From an uncultured Thalassolituus sp. (GTDB taxonomy: Bacteria > Pseudomonadota > Gammaproteobacteria > Pseudomonadales > Oceanobacteraceae), in assembly GCF_950066645.1 (NCBI RefSeq), contig NZ_CATMFB010000009.1, positions 1-64,000 on the forward strand: a DNA stretch of 64,000 nt, read 5' to 3'. Within the stretch, counting starts at the first letter, position 1. Each line of letters starts with the position of its first letter. Both the position numbers and the translations under genes were made by a program. Below the pieces are notes generated by a model that was not told the origin of the DNA, did not search any database, and worked only from the letters and a program-made list of their open reading frames with translations. Shown in pieces: positions 11,475-47,689 of this stretch.

Positions 11475-14134
<2,660 letters not shown>

Positions 14135-14509: not shown

Positions 14510-15837
14510 AAATCTTCATCCTCAGCAGAACCGGAGTAACGCTGCAGTGAACTTGCTTCATTCAGGCCCCGGTAATGCTCAAGCTTTGCACCAATCTTCT
14601 GCTCAAGTCCACGTTCGGTCGGGTGATAAAAGCGTGTTCCTTTCAGTGCTTCCGGAAGATACACCTCCCCCGCTGCAAACGCTCCGGGCTCATCATGCGC
14701 GTAGCGATATTCAGCACCATAATCCAATGAGGCCATCAGTTTAGTCGGGGCGTTGCGAAGGTGTAATGGTACCTCATAGCCGGGCGTGCTCTGCACCAGT
14801 TTTCTCGCCGCTTTGTAGGCAGTGTAAACCGCATTACTTTTAGGGGCTGAGGCAAGATAGACGACCGCCTGCGCGAGGGTTAGCTCACCCTCCGGCGACC
14901 CAAGACGTTCCTGGGTTTCCCAGGCAGAGGTGCAGAGGGTAAGCGCTCTCGGATCTGCATTACCGATATCTTCACTGGCCATTCTCACGAGGCGCCGGGC
15001 AATGTACAGAGGATCACATCCACCATCCAACATACGGCAGAACCAATACAAAGCGCCGTCGGGGTCTGACCCCCGGACGGACTTGTGGAGTGCCGATATC
15101 TGGTCGTAAAACGCATCCCCACCCTTATCGAACCGGCGGAAGCTACTGACCAGAACTGCGCGGGCATCTTCTTCAGTCAGAGGGGTTCCCGAATTAAGCT
15201 GCAACGCCTGTTCGAGAAGATTGATACAGCGACGCGCATCGCCATCACTGGCACCTGCCAGCAGATGAAGCGGGCCTTCGTCCTCCTGCCTGACGCCGAG
15301 ACTGTCGAGACCACGCCGTAAAACACTGAGCAGATCGTCTTCATTCAACGATCTGAGAACATACACCTGCGCTCGGGAAAGCAGCGCATTGTTGAGTTCG
15401 AACGAGGGGTTCTCTGTTGTAGCGCCAACAAAGATAAACGTGCCGTCTTCTACGTATGGCAGGAACGCATCCTGCTGCGATTTATTGAATCTGTGCACTT
15501 CATCAATAAACAGAAGTGCTTTGCGTCCTTCCGCCCGGGCCTGACGCGCTCGCTCAACCGCTTCACGAATCTCCTTTACGCCCGCCATTACCGCACTGAT
15601 AGACAGAAAGACGGCATCGACATGCCCTGCGATTAATCTGGCAAGCGTTGTTTTACCAACCCCGGGAGGGCCCCAGAGAATGAGCGAATGTATTTCGCCA
15701 GCGTCGAGTGCCTTACGCAGAGGGGCATCAACACCAACAATATGCCGCTGCCCGACGTATTCATTGAGACTGGCCGGGCGCAATCGAGAGGCGAGAGGCT
15801 CGTACGGGCTCTTTGTAGAAAACAGATCAGAGTGCAT
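14506..15837 (-). CDS. rarA: Replication-associated recombination protein A (MgsA/RarA AAA+ ATPase)
   Basis: RarA is a clamp-loader-like AAA+ ATPase that acts at stalled replication forks and binds SSB. The 443-residue protein has a Walker A site (WGPPGVGKTTLAR), Walker B (LFIDEVHRF), a sensor 1 region (GATTENPSFE) and the C-terminal tetramerisation domain. I chose the ATG at 15837 (MHSDLFSTKSPYEPLASRLRP), which overlaps the end of lolA by 11 bases; an upstream in-frame start would add 20 untypical residues. It sits in the conserved ftsK-lolA-rarA-crcB-serS order. Confidence 0.96.
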   Translation of the reverse strand: MHSDLFSTKSPYEPLASRLRPASLNEYVGQRHIVGVDAPLRKALDAGEIHSLILWGPPGVGKTTLARLIAGHVDAVFLSISAVMAGVKEIREAVERARQARAEGRKALLFIDEVHRFNKSQQDAFLPYVEDGTFIFVGATTENPSFELNNALLSRAQVYVLRSLNEDDLLSVLRRGLDSLGVRQEDEGPLHLLAGASDGDARRCINLLEQALQLNSGTPLTEEDARAVLVSSFRRFDKGGDAFYDQISALHKSVRGSDPDGALYWFCRMLDGGCDPLYIARRLVRMASEDIGNADPRALTLCTSAWETQERLGSPEGELTLAQAVVYLASAPKSNAVYTAYKAARKLVQSTPGYEVPLHLRNAPTKLMASLDYGAEYRYAHDEPGAFAAGEVYLPEALKGTRFYHPTERGLEQKIGAKLEHYRGLNEASSLQRYSGSAEDEDL

Positions 15838-41640: not shown

Positions 41641-43032
41641 ATGTCGTCTGCTGGCAAATTCACCCCAGAGCTGCTGTCCCCTGCGGGTACCCTGAACAAT
41701 ATGAAATACGCGTTTGCCTACGGTGCCGACGCCGTGTATGCAGGACAGCCGCGTTACAGCCTTCGCGTACGCAACAACGATTTCAACATGGAAAATCTGG
41801 CTACAGGCATTGAGTACGCTCACAATCTGGGCAAGCAATTCTATGTGGCGAGCAACATCGCGCCACACAACTCGAAAATCGCGACCTATATGCGCGACAT
41901 CGAGCCCGTCATTGAGATGAAACCGGACGCCCTGATCATGTCTGATCCAGGCCTGATCATGATGGTCAAAGACAAATGGCCCGACCAGGTCATTCATCTC
42001 TCGGTCCAGGCCAACGTTGTCAACTACGCCAGTGTCGAGTTCTGGCGCCGTCAGGGCGTCAGCCGCATCATTCTCTCACGCGAACTTTCAATTGAAGAAA
42101 TCGCTGAAATCCGGGAAAAGTGCCCGGAAATGGAAATCGAAGTCTTCGTGCATGGCGCGCTGTGCATCGCCTATTCAGGACGTTGCCTGCTGTCAGGCTA
42201 TATGAATCATCGCGATCCGAACCAGGGCACCTGCACCAATGCCTGCCGATGGAAATACGACGCGCACGAAGCCGAAGAAACCGCCGGTGGCGATGTCATT
42301 CCGAAAGGCGTTAACGAATTTGACCCGACGCTCGGACGCGGCGCGACTTCCGACAAGATCTTCCTGCTACAGGAAGGTAACCGCCCTAACGAATACATGC
42401 CTGCGTTCGAAGACGAGCACGGCACCTACATCATGAACTCGAAGGATCTGAGAGCCATCCAGCACATCGAGAAGCTGGTTGAGTTGGGTGTACATTCGCT
42501 CAAAATCGAAGGCCGGACAAAATCGCACTACTACGTTGCTCGCACCGCGCAGGCTTACCGCAAAGCGATTGATGATGCCGTAGCAGGAAAAGGGTTCGAT
42601 AAAGGCCTGATGGACACACTGGAGAACATGTCGAACCGGGGTTACACCGAAGGCTTCTTCCGGCGCCATGTTCACGATGAATATCAGAACTATGAACGTG
42701 GTAATTCAGCGTCCGTACACCAGCAGTTTGTGGGTCAGATCACCCATGTGCGCGACGGTCGTCTGACCGTTGAAGTGAAAAACCGCTTTCAGAATGGCGA
42801 TACCGTTGAACTGATGACCACCGCAGGTAACGTCACCTACCAGCTCAACGACATCCGGGACACCGGCGGCAACCCACGCGATGACGCTCCCGGTTCCGGG
42901 TTTATTGTCACCATCCCCGCTGAGGGCCTCGATCACCTGCCTCTGGAACGGGCCATGCTGATCCGCAATTTACCGGATGCGCCAGACCAGAGCGCGGTAA
43001 TCGCTGCTGAACACGCGCAGGATAAAGCATGA
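41641..43032 (+). CDS. trhP: tRNA 5-hydroxyuridine modification protein TrhP (YegQ, peptidase U32 family)
   Basis: TrhP is needed for prephenate-dependent hydroxylation of U34 in several tRNAs. The 463-residue protein follows E. coli YegQ closely: FTPELLSPAGTLNNMKYAFA, ADAVYAGQPRYSLRVRNND, the Cys motif SGRCLLSGYMNHRDPNQGTCTNACRW split over two parts (near 185-210), and EDEHGTYIMNSKDLRAI. I chose ATG 41641 with GGAG upstream over an in-frame ATG 18 bases earlier. The next gene, rluA, overlaps it by 4 bases. Confidence 0.95.
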   Translation: MSSAGKFTPELLSPAGTLNNMKYAFAYGADAVYAGQPRYSLRVRNNDFNMENLATGIEYAHNLGKQFYVASNIAPHNSKIATYMRDIEPVIEMKPDALIMSDPGLIMMVKDKWPDQVIHLSVQANVVNYASVEFWRRQGVSRIILSRELSIEEIAEIREKCPEMEIEVFVHGALCIAYSGRCLLSGYMNHRDPNQGTCTNACRWKYDAHEAEETAGGDVIPKGVNEFDPTLGRGATSDKIFLLQEGNRPNEYMPAFEDEHGTYIMNSKDLRAIQHIEKLVELGVHSLKIEGRTKSHYYVARTAQAYRKAIDDAVAGKGFDKGLMDTLENMSNRGYTEGFFRRHVHDEYQNYERGNSASVHQQFVGQITHVRDGRLTVEVKNRFQNGDTVELMTTAGNVTYQLNDIRDTGGNPRDDAPGSGFIVTIPAEGLDHLPLERAMLIRNLPDAPDQSAVIAAEHAQDKA

Positions 43033-43697
43033 GCGACAACCGTCACAGCTCGCCACGCGATACAAGTCACATCAGCAATGAAGGCCTGATTCCGCCGCTC
43101 TACATTGACGACGACATCATCGTCGTCAATAAGCCTGCGGGCCTGCTGAGTGTACCGGGCCGCTATCTGAAGGACTCCTGTGTCGCCCGCCTGCAGGAAC
43201 GTTACGGCGAGATTCTGGTCATTCACCGGCTCGATCAGGACACCTCAGGCATTCTGGTGTTCGCCCGGGATAAGAAAGCGCTCAACACGGTACAGCGCCA
43301 GTTTGAAGCTCAGACCACCCGCAAGGTGTACGAAGCAGTAGTGATGGGCGAGATCAGCGCTAACGGTGGCTGCATCAATCTGCCGATCATCGTTGACTGG
43401 CCGAACCGCCCTCTGCAGATGATCAGCCATTGTGATGGACGCTATGCGCTGACGCGCTGGAAGAAGCTTTCCGTCGAGAATGGCAACACCCGCGTGGCGT
43501 TATTTCCGAAGACCGGGCGTTCGCACCAGTTACGCCTGCATATGCAGCAGATTGGCCATCCGATTGTGGGCGACACCCTGTACGCAGGGGACGCTGCTCA
43601 GTCGGAACCGCGCCTGTGCCTGCACGCAAAAGAACTGGAGTTTGACCACCCGACAACAGGGAAGCGCATGGAGTTCAGATTGGAGCCCGGCTTTTAA
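43029..43697 (+). CDS. rluA: Dual-specificity pseudouridine synthase RluA
   Basis: RluA isomerises U746 of 23S rRNA and U32 of tRNA. The 222-residue protein has VNKPAGLLSVPGR near 33-45, catalytic D69 in HRLDQDTSGI, PLIVDW-type IVDWPNRPLQ and TGRSHQLRLHM. Its last nine codons (MEFRLEPGF and stop, from 43668) are repeated 2.8 kb downstream beyond the helicase gene, so this C-terminus may have come with that segment. ATGA overlap with trhP indicates coupling. Confidence 0.95.
   Translation: MSDNRHSSPRDTSHISNEGLIPPLYIDDDIIVVNKPAGLLSVPGRYLKDSCVARLQERYGEILVIHRLDQDTSGILVFARDKKALNTVQRQFEAQTTRKVYEAVVMGEISANGGCINLPIIVDWPNRPLQMISHCDGRYALTRWKKLSVENGNTRVALFPKTGRSHQLRLHMQQIGHPIVGDTLYAGDAAQSEPRLCLHAKELEFDHPTTGKRMEFRLEPGF
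43667..43697 (+). repeat. Direct repeat, copy 1 (3' end of rluA)
   Basis: This 31-base segment encodes MEFRLEPGF and the TAA stop of rluA. It matches 46504-46534 at 26 of 31 positions. An octamer GACAACAG precedes both copies (43652-43659 and 46487-46494), with spacing that differs by two bases. Confidence 0.8.
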
Positions 43698-43710
43698 TCA
43701 AAACCAGCAA

Positions 43711-46389
43711 TCAAAGCCACTGATCCTCCCGGCGAACCTCCCGAGCAAATGCCGATGAAAATGCCTTGAGGCGCGACTTCGCCAGAATATTCCGCCCCTC
43801 TGCAGTTCGGGTATAGATCAACTCTGCCGGCCCGACATAGTGCACCCAATTTTTGAGAAATACCTCTGCACTGCCTTTATTCAGCGCCAGTTTAAGCGGC
43901 ACTGCATGATAATCAGAACGGCCATGACTCCCCTTTCGCCTGATCAGATACCTTGGTGAATCAATCGGACTGACGACCTCAGCCAGAGCATCAGAAAACA
44001 TGGACGATTCGTAAAAGGTACCGCCCAACATCCCAACGAAGCAGGTGCCATCGGCGTGCTTTATCCGGTCTACGAACAGTTGTTTTCTTGGGGTTTCAAT
44101 GTACCCCACCTCACAGAGACTGGAAGCAGTCGCCTCACCAATCTGTTTCAGAGATCCCCCAACAGGAAGATGAAACAGCCCTATCCGAAGTAATTTCATC
44201 GTTTCAGGCAAACGCCACAGCAAAGTGACCAACACAGCCACTCCAAGCAAAAACAGCAAAACACCTACACTATGCACTCGCACAGATAGCACCCAACTCA
44301 CAGAAATCGCCAATGTGTGAGCCAACAGGAAAAGCAAAGAGCGAACGGTGTTTTTTACATGCAACCAGCGGATATCAGGTGCAAGGTCAGTCGCTACCAC
44401 TGGCCGCAATATTTCTTTTGTCCCTTTATTAAGGGCTCTTTTCCAACGTTCCCGCACACTGTCGATCTTTCGGAAGCGCTCATGCATCGTGTCATTGTTA
44501 TGCTTTACAGGATCAAACGGAGCTGTATGCCGCTGCCATAATTTTTTAAGTGGAAATGTCTCGATTCGCGTAAAATCACTGAAGATCTCATCCGCGCGCT
44601 CTGACAATCCGGCAAACAGATTAAATCGACGCATCAGCGAGAAATAATCAAAAAAAGCCAGCTCATCGTCAGTCTGATTCACCGCTACCACATGCCATAT
44701 CGAGCTGACTTTTTCAGGATTCTCCCGATCGATACGGATTGCCCGGCCACGCATCTGATTGGTGAGAACAAAAGAATTAATCCCTGTCGCAAGAATCAAT
44801 GAATTGACACAAGGCGCATCCCACCCCTCACCAAGCAAAGCACGAGTCCCAACAAGACACTGAATCAACCCCTGCTCCAATGCCTCAGTAACCACTTCGG
44901 TAATGCGATTCAGCTTGCCTGATATTTTCACATAACCAGGGAATGCCTCGGGCCGCTCCAGAAGCAGGTCATCTATCTTCCCTGCACTAGCCAGCTGGGT
45001 TATTACTGCGGCGTGAAGAAAACTAACCCGACCACTGATCAGGCCAACCTTCGCTGCAATGGGCGAACTGGCGATCAACGCCTCAAAGACCGGTAAAGCA
45101 CCAAGCCGTAGTTGCCCTAACTGCTTTCCTGAAACCATTTCATCATCGCGGATATAGTCGAGCATAATTACCTGACGCAGCCCGTCCTGACGCGCGAACC
45201 ATTCTTTACCATGAATATCGACACAAGCCCCGATTTTTGACGAACTCATCGACAGCGAGCGCTCGATAAAATGGGAACGATCAATGGTCACAGACCGACC
45301 GGCCATCAGGCCGACCGAGCGCAGATGCTTGCGCAGGCGGATCAGATATTCTGAATGTTCCGCGGCTTCGTATTTTATATCGTTGCTTGTAAGCAGCTCC
45401 TCAAGCAGCACCTGCCACCAGCGCCTGGTCAGCTCAGGAATATCGTCATTCGTCAGGTCAAACTGGGCGAGATCGTAAGACGTATCCAGCAAGGCTTTTT
45501 CGTTAAGAAACGACAGCAGTGCAATAAGACTCTCGGGGCGCTTTGAGATTCTTTGCAGCAAAGATGGATCAGTCAGCAGAGGATGCTCCCGCACAAGCAG
45601 GATAAAATCGTCGTCGTCAAATAACGTACGGCAGACAAGTGCAACGCCATCCATAAACTGAGAAATACGCTGTTGTTCGGTACGGTCGATATTGACCATC
45701 CAGACATAATCCTGATGAGGACATAGCGTTCCAGCCTTGACCAGCTCAGGAATAGAAATTTCTTCATCGATAGGGCCGCACAATTCGGTGTAGCGCTCCC
45801 AGGAGGCATCCAGAGAATCATAGGGAGGCGTAGCCGTAAGTGACACAAGAATGAGGTCCGGAACCGAGGCCGTAACGGCTTTCAGTGCTTTCCACCACTC
45901 GGCGGTTAGATGATGAGCCTCATCGAGGATGACGACTTTTATGCCGCCTTGAGCAATCACTTCCAGCAACGCCTCAGCATCGGGAATCGCCTTCTTACCG
46001 TCACCTTCAGATGGTTCGTCTTCTTCATCTGATTGTACCTGAGCGCCATTTTTCATGGCTTTCACGTGTACAGCCTGATAGGTCACAGACGTCAGCAAAG
46101 CAGGTCGGGATAGATGAGAACTTATCCAGGGAAGATCATACGGATCACCTTCCACCCCGAAATCTGTGAGACGCCGTATCCACTGATCCCTGATGATACG
46201 GGTGGGCGAGAGCACCAGAGTCGGGCGACGCAATTTCCGGAACACTTCCAGACCCAGGACGGTTTTACCGGCGCCCGGGGCGGCAACAATATGCAGCCGG
46301 TTATCATCCAGGTGATCATCAATTGCTTGCAGAACACGCTGCTGATAAGGACGCCACGAAAATCTGAACTGCATCGTATCGAAAACCAC
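43711..46389 (-). CDS. SF2 DEAD/DEAH-type helicase with two C-terminal membrane segments
   Basis: The 892-residue protein starts with RecA-like domain 1: RPYQQRVLQAI, Walker A APGAGKT (about 36-43), DEAH (156-159) and TATP (185-188). After a ~250-residue insert comes domain 2, with GTRALLGEGWDAP and motif VI QMRGRAIR (about 545-552). Two hydrophobic helices follow (about 684-703 and 708-727) and then a 160-residue tail of unknown fold. This resembles restriction- or defence-linked helicases, but no nuclease motif is seen. I prefer GTG 46389, five bases after AGGGAG; an ATG at 46374 is in frame. It is the only gene between the two rluA repeats. Confidence 0.88.
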   Translation of the reverse strand: MVFDTMQFRFSWRPYQQRVLQAIDDHLDDNRLHIVAAPGAGKTVLGLEVFRKLRRPTLVLSPTRIIRDQWIRRLTDFGVEGDPYDLPWISSHLSRPALLTSVTYQAVHVKAMKNGAQVQSDEEDEPSEGDGKKAIPDAEALLEVIAQGGIKVVILDEAHHLTAEWWKALKAVTASVPDLILVSLTATPPYDSLDASWERYTELCGPIDEEISIPELVKAGTLCPHQDYVWMVNIDRTEQQRISQFMDGVALVCRTLFDDDDFILLVREHPLLTDPSLLQRISKRPESLIALLSFLNEKALLDTSYDLAQFDLTNDDIPELTRRWWQVLLEELLTSNDIKYEAAEHSEYLIRLRKHLRSVGLMAGRSVTIDRSHFIERSLSMSSSKIGACVDIHGKEWFARQDGLRQVIMLDYIRDDEMVSGKQLGQLRLGALPVFEALIASSPIAAKVGLISGRVSFLHAAVITQLASAGKIDDLLLERPEAFPGYVKISGKLNRITEVVTEALEQGLIQCLVGTRALLGEGWDAPCVNSLILATGINSFVLTNQMRGRAIRIDRENPEKVSSIWHVVAVNQTDDELAFFDYFSLMRRFNLFAGLSERADEIFSDFTRIETFPLKKLWQRHTAPFDPVKHNNDTMHERFRKIDSVRERWKRALNKGTKEILRPVVATDLAPDIRWLHVKNTVRSLLFLLAHTLAISVSWVLSVRVHSVGVLLFLLGVAVLVTLLWRLPETMKLLRIGLFHLPVGGSLKQIGEATASSLCEVGYIETPRKQLFVDRIKHADGTCFVGMLGGTFYESSMFSDALAEVVSPIDSPRYLIRRKGSHGRSDYHAVPLKLALNKGSAEVFLKNWVHYVGPAELIYTRTAEGRNILAKSRLKAFSSAFAREVRREDQWL

Positions 46390-46472
46390 CACAACTCCCT
46401 TTTTGGTAAAACATTCGAGCCGGGAACTATAGCAAATACAAAAGATCGAGCCCGCCTACTTTGCGCGAATTA

Positions 46473-46499
46473 TTAGGCTGGACTAAGACAACAGCCTAA
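46473..46499. repeat. Inverted repeat TTAGGCT-N13-AGCCTAA beside the distal direct repeat
   Basis: This 7-base-pair dyad lies four bases from the distal rluA repeat and 13 bases past the stop of the minus-strand membrane gene. It could be a weak terminator for that operon or part of a recombination site. Confidence 0.4.
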
Positions 46500-46503
46500 A
46501 TCA

Positions 46504-46534
46504 CATGGAGTTTATGTTGGAGCCGGGGTTTTAA
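46504..46534 (+). repeat. Direct repeat, copy 2 (remnant RluA C-terminus)
   Basis: On the plus strand it reads MEFMLEPGF and TAA, in phase with the rluA end at 43668. The differences from copy 1 are two synonymous third positions in Pro and Gly codons, one in Phe, and an Arg-to-Met change of two bases. On the minus strand it also encodes the last residues (KTPAPT) of the adjacent membrane protein. Confidence 0.8.
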
Positions 46535-46979
46535 AGTCTGGAGATTTCGCGAGAGCCCAAGCGGAAACCTGCGTGTACCAGAGAGCGCTGAGAGCTATCC
46601 AAACGGGGCTCAGAAGTACCTCAGCAACACCCGCAAAATAGACAGTTGCACCTGCGATACCATCTGGATCATCAGCACTCAATGCAAAATAAAAAAGCAG
46701 ATGATAGGAAGTCATCGAAAGCAGCAGCGCAAGACCCCAGGGTTTAAGCCACTGTCGAAAACTACGATACGGCCTGACATCCATCCACCTCAGATAGCTC
46801 GCAATTGCGAGTAAAACTGAAGGTAGTATTAATACGGGCACGACAATTACAGAAAACGCAATGAAAGCGCCCGCAATCTCTTTAAGAAAATCCGAGAAAG
46901 CAAAGCACAGGCAAAGAACAAGCAAGAAAATCCCACCCGGCACACACAACATACCAGCGACTTTACGTTGCACAATCAT
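46512..46979 (-). CDS. Membrane protein of unknown function (four helices)
   Basis: The 155-residue protein has four predicted membrane helices (about 8-28, 33-60, 80-100 and 110-140), with an Arg-rich cytoplasmic loop RWMDVRPYRSFRQW between the second and third. I do not recognise a family. Its start overlaps the end of the DUF1461 gene by 4 bases, and its last codons overlap the distal rluA repeat. Confidence 0.75.
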   Translation of the reverse strand: MIVQRKVAGMLCVPGGIFLLVLCLCFAFSDFLKEIAGAFIAFSVIVVPVLILPSVLLAIASYLRWMDVRPYRSFRQWLKPWGLALLLSMTSYHLLFYFALSADDPDGIAGATVYFAGVAEVLLSPVWIALSALWYTQVSAWALAKSPDFKTPAPT

Positions 46980-47689
46980 TGCGGTCGATTAACCAGACGA
47001 CCAATCAAGAGCAGGTATAAGCTGAAGAGTAAGATACCGACTACCCCAATCGTCGCCCCTATCCCACCAAACAGATCTGGCGCTTTCATCATGGTGCTCA
47101 TCAGAGACTCCTGATAGTAAAAGAACCACTGATGATCATCGGGAAAGATCCAGACATGCAGTTGATAGAAGACGGCAGTAGGGCCAGCGACCACCAGCAC
47201 CAACCCGAGCCCCCCTAACAGGCCTCCCAGAAGCAGACCCTGCTGCTTCCAGCGAATAGCTATCCGGCGCCGCGCCAGAACGAAAGAACCAACCGCGGCG
47301 ACAAGCAGGCTGATCGCGCCTGCAACGGACAGCACATCGATCAGGTTGGCGACATCCTGAAGATGAACAACTTCAGGCTCGCGTAGCAGTGGCTTTGTCC
47401 GGCCATACCGGTCAGTAAACTCCAGTTCGCGTAATCCTTGCCCCTGGCTGTGTACGGCATCAACAATTCCTCCAAACAGCGCCAGATGATCGTCACGCGT
47501 CAGATGGTTAAACCCACGGATATAACGATTTTTGGGGCCATAACGCTCAATATGCTGGTCAATTTCCATCTGGTCGTACCAGAAGCCATAACCATAATCG
47601 ACCGGTTTATGCAGCATCCAGCCAGTGGCCAGTGAGGCAAGAAGGCCTGCCAACAGGACAACGCCCCACATACCATCCGTTAACTTCAC
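46976..47689 (-). CDS. DUF1461-like membrane protein
   Basis: The 237-residue protein has an N-terminal membrane helix, a soluble loop of about 110 residues and three more helices. The loop motifs YIRGFNHLTRDDHLALF and EVVHLQDVANLIDVL, and the late HVWIFPDDHQWFF, resemble the DUF1461 family of integral membrane proteins, whose function is unknown. It overlaps its neighbours on both sides by 4 bases, so it belongs to one operon with the two hydrolases and the four-helix protein. Confidence 0.78.
   Translation of the reverse strand: MKLTDGMWGVVLLAGLLASLATGWMLHKPVDYGYGFWYDQMEIDQHIERYGPKNRYIRGFNHLTRDDHLALFGGIVDAVHSQGQGLRELEFTDRYGRTKPLLREPEVVHLQDVANLIDVLSVAGAISLLVAAVGSFVLARRRIAIRWKQQGLLLGGLLGGLGLVLVVAGPTAVFYQLHVWIFPDDHQWFFYYQESLMSTMMKAPDLFGGIGATIGVVGILLFSLYLLLIGRLVNRPQ

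Follow-up and report, generated by a model that had tools for sequence, protein, structure and literature searches.

Homology-facilitated illegitimate recombination (HFIR), in which foreign DNA is anchored by homology on one side and joined illegitimately on the other, with loss of recipient DNA and without an integrase, has been reported in Streptococcus pneumoniae, Acinetobacter baylyi and Pseudomonas stutzeri (PMC3240628; here and below, comparisons extend to the available portions of the papers cited). In Vibrio cholerae, effector genes of the type VI secretion system (T6SS) are displaced by incoming modules while immunity genes and old 3′ parts are retained, a situation paralleled by Rhs loci with orphaned 3′ regions, and the authors tentatively propose a mechanism akin to HFIR (PMC5361080). 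In this study, we examined a locus of related appearance in a 64,000-nucleotide stretch (hereafter the window) from an uncultured Thalassolituus sp. (contig NZ_CATMFB010000009.1, positions 1 to 64,000; genome G000), where the pseudouridine synthase gene rluA is followed by an inserted helicase gene and then by a second copy of its own 3′ end. We consider it likely, with a probability of roughly 75%, that homology in rluA brought the cargo in and that an illegitimate joint formed inside the native rluA; the locus would then bear the scar of a gene acquired from a related species through transformation-like recombination. Literature searches on rluA as an island site and on illegitimate recombination, judged from their listings, showed no description of this locus.

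The rluA gene of the window (43029–43697, + strand; PseudoU_synth_2, E = 6.1e-29) is intact, and relatives of it were found in 55 of 55 genomes. Its last 31 bases (43667–43697, + strand) recur at 46504–46534 on the same strand with 26 matches. None of 2000 dinucleotide shuffles of the 4 kb downstream gave more than 21/31, a value that seven of them reached, and the runner-up place on the + strand of the whole window gave 20/31; the duplicated rluA 3′ end is therefore real. A single recognisable gene lies between the two copies, an open reading frame (ORF) on the − strand for an 893-residue superfamily 2 (SF2) helicase with ResIII/DEAD domain matches (43711–46392). Both points had been made in a sequence-only reading of this DNA, and the shuffles, the ORF list and the domain search bear them out. 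No recombinase gene was recognised in this 2.8 kb unit by ORF list or domain search. The distal copy, which encodes MEFMLEPGF-stop and which we read as the displaced native 3′ end of rluA, contains the 3′ end of a 155-residue membrane-protein ORF (46512–46979, − strand); the claimed overlap with the codons of this next convergent gene measures 23 bp. Beyond it stands the gene for a 237-residue membrane protein (Lit/TIGR01906-like; 46976–47689, − strand), a gene that usually lies convergent to rluA in this family.

Within the family, rluA and the 237-residue neighbour are in convergent synteny, as judged from match coordinates, in 28 genomes; 24 of these sites are closed, with at most about 150 bp between the two matches, and four carry cargo (G000, G001, G007 and G008). 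Outside this count are 16 of the 44 family genomes, namely G010, G021, G025, G033 (genes about 19 kb apart), G029 (different contigs), G030 (no match to the neighbour) and the ten genomes G055–G064, in which rluA was not searched. Because most syntenic sites are closed and relatives of the helicase occur in only four of the 44 family genomes (G000, G001, G008 and G063), the helicase at rluA is an insertion, as had been supposed from the window alone. Two further expectations fared less well. The exact empty site, with rluA overlapping the 155-residue gene and no helicase, was seen in no genome, and in the 24 closed loci rluA stands beside the 237-residue gene instead. The prediction of different cargo between the same repeats held as far as the cargo goes, since in G007 the space from rluA to the 237-residue gene (L046 8278–10472) is occupied by genes for a LytTR protein and an acyltransferase, but no rluA remnant rose above chance there in a shuffle test. 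In 15 of 18 loci (leaving out L054, L055 and L057, in which the rluA end was not precisely set), the end of the resident rluA was compared with the DNA behind it in search of a remnant, and only that of G008 (24/31) exceeded its 200 shuffles.

The rluA-side junction is common to G000, G001 and G008, the C-terminus of the helicase lying directly behind rluA in the latter two as well (88% protein identity), and it is at the far end that the three carriers part. The window genome has the whole helicase and its upstream DNA, followed by the 31-bp remnant. In G001 the start of the helicase is kept, and an rluA remnant does not rise above chance. In G008 the helicase is broken at codon ~38 and fused to a 185-bp rluA remnant. 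The helicase gene of both G001 and G008 is moreover split by a segment of about 12 kb (L041 2709–15125 in G008 and the matching part of L042 in G001), which encodes a heavy-metal-type resistance-nodulation-division (RND) pump and cation-efflux proteins, as well as an insertion-sequence-type transposase in G008, and which is 99.0% identical between the two genomes in its aligned part.

The clearest evidence for how such an insertion may arise comes from G008. Its left flank of about 17 kb matches G003 at 15412 of 16478 aligned bases (93.5%) and G001 at 13620 of 16838 (80.9%), and its right flank is 93.9% identical to G003 versus 84.6% to G001. Between L041 1559 and 1562, just over 20 bp ahead of the rluA start, the sequence switches to G001-like DNA, and the 137 consecutive informative sites that follow, until 2248, are all G001-like. 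The rluA block agrees with that of G001 at 692 of 692 bases and the aligned island at 11991 of 12112, with the differences mostly confined to about 2 kb over the efflux-pump gene. This identity stops exactly at the joint between helicase and rluA, where CCGG or CCGGG (4–5 bp) is common to both sequences. Behind the joint, the remnant matches the rluA of G003 at 140 of 155 aligned bases. In a stretch of 180 bases, 27 differences separate it from G003, of which 20 fall at third codon positions, and 37 separate it from the rluA of G008 itself. Because the differences from G003 fall mostly at third positions, the remnant was a working gene until recently. Native rluA upstream of these last 185 bp is gone, with donor rluA in its place, so that insertion was accompanied by loss of recipient DNA. 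On this comparison, the remnant is the native rluA end, recently displaced, and the functional rluA arrived with the cargo. The displaced end overlaps the 155-residue gene by exactly 23 bp, which agrees with the ancestral tail-to-tail overlap of about 23 bases that had been guessed from the window.

The window genome shows a counterpart of this arrangement in the two copies of the repeat. Five bases differ between them, and at four of the five the two copies of G008 differ in the same direction. Proximal copies thus look donor-type and distal copies native; since each kind groups across species, they would represent donor-type and native-type alleles rather than a fresh attachment core, and we infer from this comparison with G008 that the rluA of the window bears a donor-type 3′ end. 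The distal copies of both genomes share the overlap of exactly 23 bp with the 155-residue gene, which may explain why the remnant persists. With respect to the far joint, the DNA upstream of the helicase (46393–46494, − strand) is homologous to G001 until about 46494. Homology thus ends about at GACAACAG (46487–46494), a candidate microhomology that occurs also in rluA at 43652–43659, whereas G001 has GACAAAAG at this place. The joint may lie at GACAACAG, whose occurrence in rluA is at nearly the corresponding place. As GACAACAG precedes the common ATGGAG by 10 bases in the distal copy and by 8 bases in rluA, the rluA similarity on the distal side may itself start there, before 46504.

Taken together, these features would fit the following course of events. 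Incoming DNA from a related species, carrying rluA and then the helicase, would have gained its anchor through homologous recombination within rluA or immediately upstream of it, a step visible in G008 and presumed for the window genome. The far end of the foreign DNA would then have been joined through short microhomology inside the native rluA, again as in G008 and, in the window genome, perhaps at the candidate joint. The donor end of rluA would have completed a functional gene, and the native end would have been displaced behind the cargo, where it probably persists through its overlap with the next gene. Neither an integrase nor a fixed attachment site would be required. The DNA was presumably taken up free; conjugation likewise yields HFIR-type events, at low efficiency (PMC3240628).

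Measured against HFIR, a homologous crossover on the anchor side was found in G008 only, an illegitimate microhomology joint opposite the anchor in G008 (CCGG/CCGGG) and as the candidate GACAACAG in the window genome, and loss of recipient DNA with the insertion in G008. The rluA case differs from the reported examples in being natural, between species and anchored in a housekeeping gene, and in that G008 is homologous to its donor at both outer ends.

Several observations weigh against our interpretation. HFIR has homology at one end only, but G008 contains a second G001-like tract (L041 16407–17417, 230 consecutive informative sites) to the right of the native patch, covering the 237-residue gene and part of the next gene; homologous recombination with the donor thus took place at both outer sides, and the one illegitimate joint lies between them. 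As this amounts to two-sided homology, we do not claim strict membership, and describe the G008 event as one that would work like HFIR in a two-sided variant. The 4–5 bp of microhomology at its joint are weak by themselves. In the window genome, moreover, the event is reconstructed by comparison, with no mosaic breakpoint visible, whereas in G008 it can be read directly; no mosaic signal was found inside the window rluA, which is about equally distant from the congeners compared. With its 31 bp, the remnant offers too little sequence for a tree, the ten bases at the joint (46495–46504) match neither parent well, and constraint from the common overlap could explain part of the likeness between the distal copies. 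Finally, ComEC scored over its cut-off in nine of nine congeners, but the model also matches 12 of 14 control genomes, Escherichia coli included, five of them over the cut-off; natural competence of the hosts is for this reason only plausible.

An alternative is a single ancient insertion in the ancestor of G000, G001 and G008, whose far ends were later reshaped by deletion or exchange while the closed relatives lost the helicase. Vertical descent is compatible with the divergence of the helicase between G000 and G001/G008 (81–88% protein identity), which resembles that of rluA (90–91%), and the grouping of proximal copies with one another, and of distal copies likewise, would also be expected. 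However, six of the nine congeners are without the helicase and would have to be explained by loss, the G008 tract is a recent import from a G001-like donor, and a remnant that still functioned as a gene until recently, as its third-position differences from G003 show, sits poorly with an old event. We therefore regard this explanation as unlikely.

Site-specific integration at the rluA 3′ end was the explanation put forward in the sequence-only reading. Spelled out, it would involve an integrase acting in trans and the repeat as attL/attR core. In its favour, the repeat occupies the 3′ end of a conserved gene, rluA, whose reading frame it restores, and a second RNA-modifying gene, dusA, does serve as a site for islands (PMC4482086). 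Yet a site-specific element should have constant ends, and since the three carriers show three far junctions, with a remnant of 31 bp, of 185 bp or none, the fit is bad; in G008 the joint even falls within the helicase gene. Nor do the copies look like a once-identical core, because four of the five differences between them are common with G008, which argues for old allele differences and not for drift. The 2.8 kb unit has no visible recombinase gene, and the mechanism favoured here would need none. In the dusA islands, foreign DNA likewise sits at an RNA-modifying gene, but an integrase is present and the site is at the 5′ end (PMC4482086), whereas the rluA case is without integrase, constant ends or identical core. 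We consider this explanation close to refuted.

The draft state of the genomes, with G008 in about 30 contigs, raises the question of whether an assembly artefact or a mixed culture could have produced its mosaic and left it uninformative for the window locus. This is very improbable, as the donor-like DNA departs from G001 in places (95–96% identity across the 2 kb at the efflux-pump gene) and lies, with a sharp switch, inside a contig of 192,842 bases from a genome whose contamination is given as 1%; the remnant in the window genome is in any case independent of G008. A repeat of just 31 bp with five mismatches might suggest that the distal copy resembles rluA by chance, or arose as a short local duplication unrelated to the helicase, but this can practically be dismissed given the shuffle maximum of 21/31 and the much longer independent remnant that G008 has at this position, likewise with an overlap of 23 bp.

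The 155-residue ORF, whose overlap appears to have preserved the scar, has relatives in three of nine congeners, which are exactly the helicase carriers. It diverges fast, with 54% identity to the G008 copy and 27% (E = 2.9e-4) to that of G001, and has no match in Pfam or NCBIfam. Its candidacy as part of the cargo was set aside, because in G008 this gene shares bases with the native rluA remnant and is not derived from the G001-like donor. We treat the gene as native, which is supported by these comparisons but not proven.

As for the cargo, it is a rare stand-alone SF2 helicase. In the class sample, one of 369 genomes had it, namely the window's own (E up to 1e-30), and a search of 55 relatives at E up to 0.001 gave five matches, of which those in G034 and G052 were weak, partial and to generic helicase parts. 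A scan of named genomes added six relatives, in Bacilli plus one Verrucomicrobium. Matches were found in three of 72,556 plasmid records (E limit 1e-20) and two of 50,697 phage records (E limit 1e-10), each below 60% identity. The family, of about 890 residues, thus comprises members in Bacilli, a Verrucomicrobium and a few Gammaproteobacteria, which are 35–47% identical to the window helicase except in its own two congeners. The protein has a hydrophobic hairpin near residues 683–731, which is weaker or absent in some relatives, and in a profile search of solved structures its N-terminal helicase part alone was matched, to RAD25/XPB and UvrB. The proposal of a minimal defence cassette finds little to sustain it. 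PADLOC returned no defence-family match beyond generic helicase motifs, the best being PbeA (E = 7.1e-10, residues 10–246) and the remainder weaker still and confined to helicase parts; every NCBIfam match was far below its cut-off, restriction-type matches were likewise weak and limited to helicase parts, and neither inspection by eye of seven loci of helicase relatives nor the annotation of one plasmid revealed an unusual neighbourhood. From its domain family, the protein would be an ATP-driven nucleic-acid translocase, and we claim no more for its function.

Some further features of the carriers deserve mention. In G063 (L062 1342–5166) the helicase is 47% identical to that of the window and at a different genomic place, and is followed by a 113-residue ORF that has a hydrophobic stretch and matches nothing in Pfam. 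The island of G001 and G008 contains, besides the genes named above, what we take by eye, without a family match, to be a MerR-type regulator, a DsbA-like protein and an outer-membrane efflux protein with its adaptor. It may also hold a recombinase fragment, judged in the same manner; Pfam gave no match for the 157-residue ORF tried. L041 14751–14804, close to where the metal-efflux segment ends, is a perfect tandem pair of 27-bp repeats, of which one copy set was matched in G001. In the right flank of G008, several kb (about L041 24501–26500 and 28501–32500) are 99–100% identical to G003 against an average of about 94%, a sign that congeners may have exchanged more DNA recently.

The mechanism itself is known, and G008 shows it in unusual detail, its logic being legible base by base as anchor, joint and displaced native end. 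A close analogy is with V. cholerae, whose T6SS and Rhs loci share a conserved upstream anchor, new cargo and an old 3′ part behind the cargo; there, effector and immunity genes are kept by competition, whereas here the tail of a housekeeping gene is probably kept only through its overlap (PMC5361080). By this likeness, the rluA case would belong to the same kind of displacement, with a housekeeping gene as anchor. The several discontinuous donor segments close together in G008 also resemble those described after natural transformation of Bacillus subtilis, although these were laboratory transformants, and a displaced gene end is not among the features described in the available portion of that report (PMC13344027).

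In conclusion, duplicated gene ends around small islands are easily mistaken for attachment sites, and at rluA this picture probably arose without an integrase. Tentatively, the rluA tail in this genus might even be a hotspot of integrase-free gene acquisition, with rluA as a reusable homologous anchor and an overlap that preserves a readable scar; as the joint lies within native rluA, cargo would come as an addition and not as an exchange. If this doubtful extension were true, transformation-type gene gain would leave displaced 3′ ends as its signature throughout genomes. Where a displaced end and its functional counterpart show native-type and donor-type alleles, they could help find such events in genome collections, and a survey of this kind could measure how frequent additive, integrase-free gene gain is in nature.

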